From contig JARKPE010000061.1 in assembly GCA_029975415.1 (NCBI GenBank), positions 1 through 34,949 of the forward strand: a stretch of 34,949 nucleotides of DNA. Direction: 5' to 3'. The DNA is from Dysgonamonadaceae bacterium (GTDB lineage: Bacteria > Bacteroidota > Bacteroidia > Bacteroidales > Dysgonomonadaceae). Shown here piece by piece: positions 10,109 through 11,419 of the stretch. A program made the position numbers and the translations under genes. The notes under the pieces are model-generated. The model was not told where the DNA came from. It did not search any database and was given only the letters and a program-made list of their open reading frames with translations. Positions within the stretch are counted from its first letter, which is position 1. Each line of letters starts with the position of its first letter.

Positions 10109-10437
10109 ATAGGGTCATCCCTACGGGATTTTGTATTTTGGTTCGATATTTTTTTCTACCAAAAGGTTGTCCCTACGGGACAAAAATCAATTTTGCAATC
10201 TCCGTAAGAGCGTATATTTACGGTATGATTACATTTCCCATGTTCTATTAATCATACCCTACGGGACAAAACAAATTTCGTAAGCTCCGTAAGAGAACGC
10301 ATACCTACGGGACAATTACATTCCCATGCTTTGTAAAATTACATCCGTGGAATAATATTTCATAAGCTCCGTAGGAGCATATAATCATACAATCATTTTA
10401 CATAGCCCAGCAGGGCGACCGTTCTTTAATTATAAAA
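10109..10437. repeat. Direct repeat unit, copy 1 (~330 bp, palindrome-rich)
   Basis: gggtcatccctacgggattttgtattttggttcgatatttttttctaccaaaaggttgtccctacgggac... through gggcgaccgttctttaattataaaa; near-identical to 10446-10787 at 337-bp spacing. Confidence 0.93.
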
Positions 10438-10445
10438 CTGTTATC

Positions 10446-10787
10446 ATAGGGTCATCCCTACGGGATTTTGTGTTTTGGTTCGATATTTTTTTCTACCAAA
10501 AGGTTGTCCCTACGGAACAAAATCAATTTCGCAATCTCCGTTGGAGCGCATATTTACGGTATGATTACATTTCCCATGTTCTGTTAATTACCCTACGGGA
10601 CAAAACACATTTCGTAAGCTCCGTAAGAGCGTATACCTACGGGACAATTATATTCCCATGCTTCGTAAAATTACATCCGTAGAATAATATTTCATACGCT
10701 CCGTAGGAGCATGCTTATGGTAGAATAATATAATCACGCAACCATTTTATAAAGCCCCCGCGGGGCGACCGTTCTTTAATCGTAAAA
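10446..10787. repeat. Direct repeat unit, copy 2 (~340 bp, palindrome-rich), abutting the transposase 3' end
   Basis: Same unit as 10109-10437 with scattered substitutions and one ~15-nt insertion-like difference. Contains perfect palindromes such as GCTCCGTAGGAGC (10698-10710) and GCCCCCGCGGGGC (10754-10766). Confidence 0.93.
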
Positions 10788-11238
10788 ATCAAATACATAT
10801 TCGTCCTTATATTCAATTTCAAATTTCATCAACATATCCAAATATTCTTCTTTGAATGTTTTCAACTGATGATGCTTTTCCTGATTCATAATGTATTGAA
10901 TTACTTCATTCCGTTGAGAACGCGAATAAGAAAATGCTCCGTATCCTTCTTGCCACTGAAACTTCCCCTTGACGAAACGATTATCATTAATCCATTTGGA
11001 AGATACAGCTTTTAAATCTCGCATCACATCGGAAACCCTCAAGCTCGAAAGTAATTCAAAAAACACATGAACATGGTCTCTCCATCCTCCAATAGATAAA
11101 GGAAACACATTGTCATTCTTTAAAATTCCCGACATATATTTATGCAAGTTGTCACGAAAACTGTCAGTTATTATATTTTCTTAGCCTTTAACGGCAAAAA
11201 ACGCAATGGATATTGATTTGTGAGTAAGTATTAGCCAT
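10776..11238 (-). pseudogene. IS200-like / RAYT-like Y1 (HUH) transposase, decayed
   Basis: C-terminal ORF 10776-11147 keeps GGWRDHVHVFFEL (HUH) and SYSRSQRNEVIQYIMNQEKHH. Upstream ATG at 11238 gives MANTYSQINIHCVF, then a +1 T frameshift in a T6 run. The corrected frame reads FAVKG-stop-ENIITDSFRDNLHKYMSGILKN. Confidence 0.85.
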
Positions 11239-11419
11239 TTATGCAACAAATTTATTGAGTGAAACATTACCTTTTATGTACTCAGTATCGCGAAACGCAA
11301 TTTAGAAACGAGCGCTAAAAAAATGATTTTATAAAAAAATCCCTCTGAACTTACAAAACAATTTAAATATTTCAAGACGAATCAAAGGAATATTTATTGG
11401 CTAACAGACTTCGTTTAAC

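Follow-up and report, generated by a model that had tools for sequence, protein, structure and literature searches.

Two-hairpin repeats beside a broken Y1 transposase gene: probable partner DNA of subclass 1.2 enzymes in Bacteroidales

The window analyzed here, a stretch of 34,949 nucleotides (contig C92 of a Bacteroidales genome, 2.03 Mb, 84% complete), contains a tandem repeat array abutting a Y1 HUH transposase gene. We consider it likely that this array is a REPtron-like locus, in which the neighbouring class-1 (IS200-like) transposase of subclass 1.2 has non-coding two-hairpin elements as its cognate DNA, i.e., that an apparently orphan enzyme probably has partner DNA. The best reading is a new REP type together with its cognate class-1 transposase, decaying in the window genome, with a mobility and a cleavage site that we infer. 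Given that subclass 1.2 has been known as a group close to IS200 transposases, with neither IS ends nor REPs, it had no known substrate, and the covarying two-hairpin element is a concrete candidate for one.

The array and the adjacent transposase gene

The element consists of a foot (KKTC), a first hairpin (HP1), a T-rich spacer, CTAYM, 8 nt and a second hairpin (HP2). Each hairpin has a 5-bp stem and a 3-4-nt loop, and the two follow each other in the same orientation at a distance of ~38 nt (36-40). TACC, TATA or TACA stands 8 nt upstream of HP2, and HP1 is usually without TACC. The features in the window are the following:

10109..10183, plus strand: unit 1 forward two-hairpin element, in the order foot ATAGGGTC region, HP1 (10117-10129), T-rich spacer, TTTTCTACC, 8-nt gap, HP2 (the inner 5 bp inside 10167-10183); covariance-model match of 69.8 bits, E 1.8e-11 in its own genome
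10184..10365, no strand: unit 1 centre with decayed hairpins (e.g., 10200-10210 and 10284-10295), from sequence
10366..10420, minus strand: unit 1 reverse element with R-HP2 (10366-10378), R-HP1 GCCCagcaGGGC (10405-10416) and foot GACC, from the unit alignment
10421..10445, no strand: inter-unit connector beginning with CGTTCTTTAAT, from sequence
10446..10520, plus strand: unit 2 forward element with HP1 (10454-10466) and HP2 (10504-10520); covariance-model match of 63.1 bits, E 4.9e-10
10521..10697, no strand: unit 2 centre with decayed hairpins (TRF period 83 at 10508-10674)
10698..10770, minus strand: unit 2 reverse element with R-HP2 (10698-10710), 8 nt, GGTAG (10719-10723), R-HP1 GCCCCcgcGGGGC (10754-10766) and foot GACC, called from the sequence, the unit alignment and the general spacing rule
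10776-11238, minus strand: tnpA, Y1 HUH transposase of subclass 1.2 type (Pfam PF01797, Y1_Tnp, E 3.6e-16)
11239..11301, minus strand: relic of the 3' end of hsdR (type I restriction subunit), directly upstream of tnpA, from blastn boundaries, protein tails and the Pfam matches of neighbours

The direct repeat is made of two units (10109-10441 and 10446-10787) at a spacing of 337 bp, with covariance-model matches starting at 10109 and 10446. In the unit-to-unit alignment 304 of the 331 aligned positions (~92%) are identical, and blast of unit 1 against unit 2 (10446-10787) gives an identity of 87%, so that the two near-identical units described by an earlier, sequence-only reading are borne out. 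Perfect mini-hairpins (arms of at least 5 bp with at least 3 GC pairs) occur six times in the array, i.e., ATCCCtacGGGAT at 10117-10129 and 10454-10466, TTGTCCCtacGGGACAA at 10167-10183, GCTCCgtaGGAGC at 10366-10378 and 10698-10710, and GCCCCcgcGGGGC at 10754-10766, against 0.53 +/- 0.70 expected (maximum 3) from 300 dinucleotide shuffles. When folded as single-stranded DNA, unit 1 is likewise more stable than its shuffles on either strand (z -4.5 and -4.2). Both comparisons agree with that reading, which had counted about nine inverted repeats per unit; this count proved too high, as even with a perfect stem of 4 bp only ~5 hairpins per unit are found and the others (10284-10295, 10504-10520 and more) carry mismatches. 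The HP2 of the unit 2 forward element (10504-10520) has decayed by one mismatch, the unit 1 reverse element has lost GGTAG where its alignment with unit 2 shows a 17-nt gap, and the centre of unit 1 holds an internal repeat of ~85 bp (TRF period 85 at 10171-10328). The pair once taken to be compensated, CTCCGTAAGAG and CTCCGTTGGAG, turned out to be one mismatched and one intact stem, with no double compensation. The mini-palindromes do alternate in orientation, as was noticed, owing to the arrangement of two-hairpin units in inverted pairs; the true repeat, however, is the two-hairpin unit with TAYM 8 nt before its second hairpin. The claim that no ORF explains the region holds for the repeat itself, but it overlooked the Y1 transposase gene, past whose stop codon the array starts at a distance of 5 bp. 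The proposed likeness to REP/BIME mosaics was right in that the array is REP-like and transposase-associated, but it missed the neighbouring gene and took decayed copies as intact. A structured transcript, also suggested, found no backing in Rfam, which returned no match for the window; ARAGORN found nothing in it either, and the logic of the element fits single-stranded DNA better than RNA.

The TnpA of the window carries the motifs DHVH, WQ and YIMNQEKHH, i.e., the signature of TnpAY1 subclass 1.2 (PMC6006769), and H55, H57, W95-Q96, Y115, Q119 and H123 are invariant in 36 relatives. Its closest solved relatives by sequence and fold are the transposases of ISDra2 and IS608 (Foldseek E ~5e-8), the REP transposase (TnpAREP) 4er8 being farther (3.6e-5). 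It is the only PF01797 match found in its genome, and no tnpB was seen beside it. An intact, syntenic orthologue of the locus is present in Seramator thermalis (L063; 88.5% over 2.4 kb), and relative to it the window tnpA is broken: a T run holds one additional base, and near the 5' end a TAA interrupts the frame. The S. thermalis locus has one unit only, after the intact gene, so we attribute the second unit in the window to tandem duplication; the connector starts with the letters of the tnpA end (CGTTCTTTAAT), and the duplicated segment therefore took in the 3' tip of the gene. With its transposase broken and its hairpins decaying, the window array most likely represents a fossil enlarged by tandem duplication. 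An array has also grown recently on contig C2 of genome G073 (L162, 675-1548), where a 437-bp segment with a reverse-forward unit pair occurs as a tandem duplicate at 96% identity.

S. thermalis has a further tnpA copy (L064), flanked by hsdR and hsdM genes of type I that are both intact, and intact hsdR lies directly upstream of tnpA at L064, L068 and L073. The orthologue L063 keeps a 62-nt hsdR tail upstream of its tnpA, and L063 and L064 have the gene, the array and these 62 nt of hsdR tail in common. The tail at L063 and in the window is probably the mark of a relocated tnpA copy.

Hairpins around subclass 1.2 genes

For a wider view, 115 distinct subclass 1.2-type genes were gathered by protein similarity alone, ignoring repeats. 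Mini-hairpins are ~25x enriched beside them: their density reaches 8.7/kb within 100 bp downstream of the stop codon and 5.3/kb ahead of the start, and drops to ~0.3/kb beyond 1 kb; 150 hairpins fall 0-200 bp downstream of the genes, compared with 4.9 +/- 2.0 in shuffles. As hairpins must not be picked by their own symmetry, the sequence-only anchor TACCAWWA was chosen, and a perfect 5-bp hairpin was found exactly 8 nt after TACC at 129 of 230 anchors near the genes vs. 1 of 195 far anchors (1.5-6 kb from the gene), offsets other than 8 nt being at background level. The stems at offset 8 comprise ~20 different complementary sequences, i.e., the covariation anticipated for homologous elements is strong; pair counts from the alignment, which was chosen for pairing, illustrate this variety of stems and are no independent proof. 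A pattern without any pairing requirement gave 44 matches in 16 genomes vs. 1 for the reversed pattern.

Of the 115 loci, 104 have one or more elements (far controls, 29/94) and 65 a proper two-hairpin pair (far controls, 1/94). The same picture emerged from a hold-out of 41 genes that were fetched later and unused in defining the motif: elements near 32 and pairs near 15 of them, against 8 and 1, respectively, in the control zone at 0.9-1.5 kb, with downstream elements forward 19:1 and upstream elements reverse 20:6. In the main sample, the nearest element downstream of tnpA is forward at 66 of 78 loci and the nearest upstream one reverse at 60 of 76, so that tnpA is enclosed by two-hairpin units in inverted orientation whose HP1 faces the gene; about a fifth of the nearest upstream elements (16/76) depart from this inverted rule. 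Between the 4-nt foot and TAYM no clear mutual information was detected, i.e., guide-target pairing of the IS608/REP type is not visible.

Association of elements with transposase lineages

A covariance model trained on TACC elements was run on 393 Bacteroidales genomes, one per species, with at most 12 matches counted per genome. The unit does recur, as the earlier reading had proposed to check: related modules lie on contigs C73 and C62 of the window genome, and the model finds elements in 151 of the 393 genomes. Given that 210 of these species have a TnpA protein match, a large share of Bacteroidales is concerned. Elements occur in 99 of 142 genomes with a strong match, 25 of 68 with a weak one and 27 of 183 with none (Fisher p = 3e-20), leaving 43 of the 142 strong-match genomes with no element by the TACC-trained model. 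Seven of the 27 genomes with elements and no TnpA match at E <= 1e-8 (G031, G043, G048, G123, G134, G188 and G299) have at least 8 elements; in these, the TnpA gene may have been lost, may have diverged or may be absent from the assembly.

On a TnpA tree with 62 labelled genes, the TACC and TATA/TACA classes require only 2 changes, compared with a mean of 15.7 and a minimum of 9 for shuffled labels. Since the species phylogeny could produce such agreement as well, paralogues within genomes were compared. Around a single TnpA, the left flank has a stem in common with the right one in 45 of 60 cases; for flanks belonging to different TnpAs of one genome this holds in 16 of 86 (p = 8e-12). The two tetranucleotides are of one class in 36 of 38 comparisons between flanks of the same gene and in 17 of 45 between different genes of one genome. 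In genome G159, for instance, three paralogues come with the families TATA/ACCCC, TACA/GCCGC and TACC/GTTCC. Element families are private to each paralogue in a genome, and such paralogues mostly diverge, both in identity to the query and in element family.

Elements without the gene and alternative explanations

Units with the layout HP2-HP1-connector-HP1-HP2 were found at several sites in genomes G262 and G073, some of them with unrelated flanks beyond HP2, and of 20 dispersed copies that were inspected, none falls within an ORF of at least 120 aa. Searches with the transposase (tblastn) gave no match on phages and two Bacteroidota replicons among plasmids. Among the genomes compared, one per species, no pair of a filled and an empty site came to light. 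The units in G262 and G073 have the layout of a tnpA locus minus the gene, as would be expected if tnpA and its inverted two-hairpin ends were a compact IS and the units without tnpA its internal-deletion derivatives, a MITE/PATE-like pair with no REP system at all. The last bases of tnpA retained in the window connector point the same way, as do the gene, array and hsdR tail common to the two S. thermalis loci. However, gene copies within a genome are mostly divergent paralogues, as also found by Quentin et al. (PMC6006769), the ends of IS200/IS605 elements are not inverted, and the upstream elements that break the inverted rule (16/76) do not suit such ends; on balance we regard a compact IS as rather unlikely.

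Genome G145 (L145-L154) holds at least 9 dispersed elements of ~345 bp, in which the two-hairpin core is bounded by 25-bp inverted ends (TTATACT...), with no clear target duplication. These ends could belong to another transposase, and it is conceivable that an unrelated enzyme using terminal inverted repeats moves the elements, with the hairpins as passengers. This is improbable, as one or both of the ends are missing from copies L149 and L150, the other genomes examined have no such ends, and both the exact TAYM-8-hairpin rule and the paralogue specificity would be left unexplained.

The GC stems followed by T-rich DNA, and their site directly after a stop codon, could also indicate host regulatory or transcription-terminating structures kept downstream of genes, the more so as effects of REPs on transcription and mRNA are on record elsewhere (PMC6006769). 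Yet the hairpins occupy either strand and either side of tnpA, stems of 5 bp with triloops are weak, Rfam gave no match, hairpin density depends on the proximity of tnpA and is back at background level within 1 kb, and the lineage tracks the transposase, all of which gives this explanation a very low probability. That chance palindromes in AT-rich intergenic DNA were multiplied by tandem duplication can be dismissed, for although the duplication of the 337-bp unit is real, the enrichment, covariation, hold-out and co-occurrence tests refute it.

Comparison with known systems

In Table 1 of Quentin et al. 2018, TnpAY1 subclass 1.2 is listed with REP "no"; for copies within a genome the same study found a mean of 1.7, at 36% identity (PMC6006769). 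The genes studied here match this subclass in DHVH, WQ, Y---Q--HH, a length of ~150 aa, occurrence in Bacteroidetes and low copy number, and differ from its description, which reports no REP sequences, in having elements at most loci (104/115). Their membership stands, and the elements correct the published "no REP" description. Searches of the literature for the motif letters found no relevant paper and, for REPs in Bacteroidetes, only Quentin 2018 and Di Nocera 2013; a REP-like class for subclass 1.2 enzymes, one that works like a REP system, was found described nowhere in the literature searched.

The likeness to REP/REPIN sequences and their TnpAREP (RAYT) enzymes of subclasses 2.2-2.8 (PMC6006769, PMC8266576, PMC3116915) lies in small hairpins at extragenic sites around a Y1 HUH gene of low copy number, in their inverted pairs, tandem clusters and dispersed copies, and in a hairpin family of its own for each paralogue. 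In contrast, the transposase here is of class 1 (Y---Q--HH) and theirs of class 2 (Y---NP), their hairpins have GTAG/GTGG at the 5' foot and ours a KKTC foot with TAYM 8 nt before HP2, and here the stem is only 5 bp and the basic unit is two hairpins of the same orientation, 38 nt apart. Given that tests for the class-2 motif and the GTAG/GTGG foot were negative, the system falls outside the class-2 TnpAREP/GTAG families. The element is not a typical IS200 either. IS200/IS605 elements (IS608, ISDra2; subclass 1.1) provide the nearest solved protein relatives and have small-loop hairpins with sequence 5' of the hairpin, but their subterminal hairpins have the same strand orientation at both ends and they occur in multiple near-identical copies, whereas here the ends are inverted with two hairpins each, no tnpB was seen beside the window gene, copy number is low and paralogues are divergent. 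The haloarchaeal PATEs (PMC3119063) are similar in being transposase-free, with palindromes near their ends and a relationship to IS605-type elements, yet they are without terminal inverted repeats, unlike the inverted two-hairpin units that form the ends here. The CGTC-tagged palindromes (PMC3733652), reported from Bacteroidetes among other phyla, recall the foot found here, which often ends in GTC or TGTC, but their stems measure 8-9 bp, their loops 4-5 nt, and no transposase is associated with them.

For the REPtron-like reading that we favour, we postulate by analogy (PMC8266576, PMC6006769) that a TnpA dimer would bind both hairpins on single-stranded (lagging-strand) DNA, that the TnpA tyrosine would cleave near the TAYM motif, and that strand transfer would spread and tandemly multiply the elements, as has been proposed for TnpAREP/REPIN and shown for IS608/ISDra2. 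Such a system would extend the REP type to enzymes of class 1 and is relevant to the origin of REPINs from IS200-like ancestors. Tentatively, subclass 1.2 and its inverted two-hairpin ends could even be a third mode between IS200-type IS and REP/REPIN, in which an IS200-like enzyme has independently acquired REPIN-like partner DNA, with a fixed two-hairpin synapse and a TAYM cleavage site, in about half of Bacteroidales species.

Several other observations concern neighbouring sequences. The position of tnpA directly downstream of a type I restriction gene was seen at L064 (3379-9048), L068 (3385-9488) and L073 (3373-6375), and at L064 and L068 tnpA is also upstream of an hsdM-like gene. On contig C73 of the window genome (L010), a second palindrome family (CCGCAGGTCgttGACCTGCGG, TTGCCTTTCAGGCAA and CCGCAGAATttATTCTGCGG; ~1441-1540, 2395-2500 and 2630-2700) adjoins TCCCTACGGGA modules; its members may be the repeats of a different Y1 or RAYT lineage. 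In a MAG labelled Methylovulum (Gammaproteobacteria), a tnpA of subclass 1.2 is accompanied by a long array of units resembling TGCA-N8-GCCCCgccGGGGC (L122, NZ_JAQTZU010000048.1), a case of either transfer between phyla or bin contamination.
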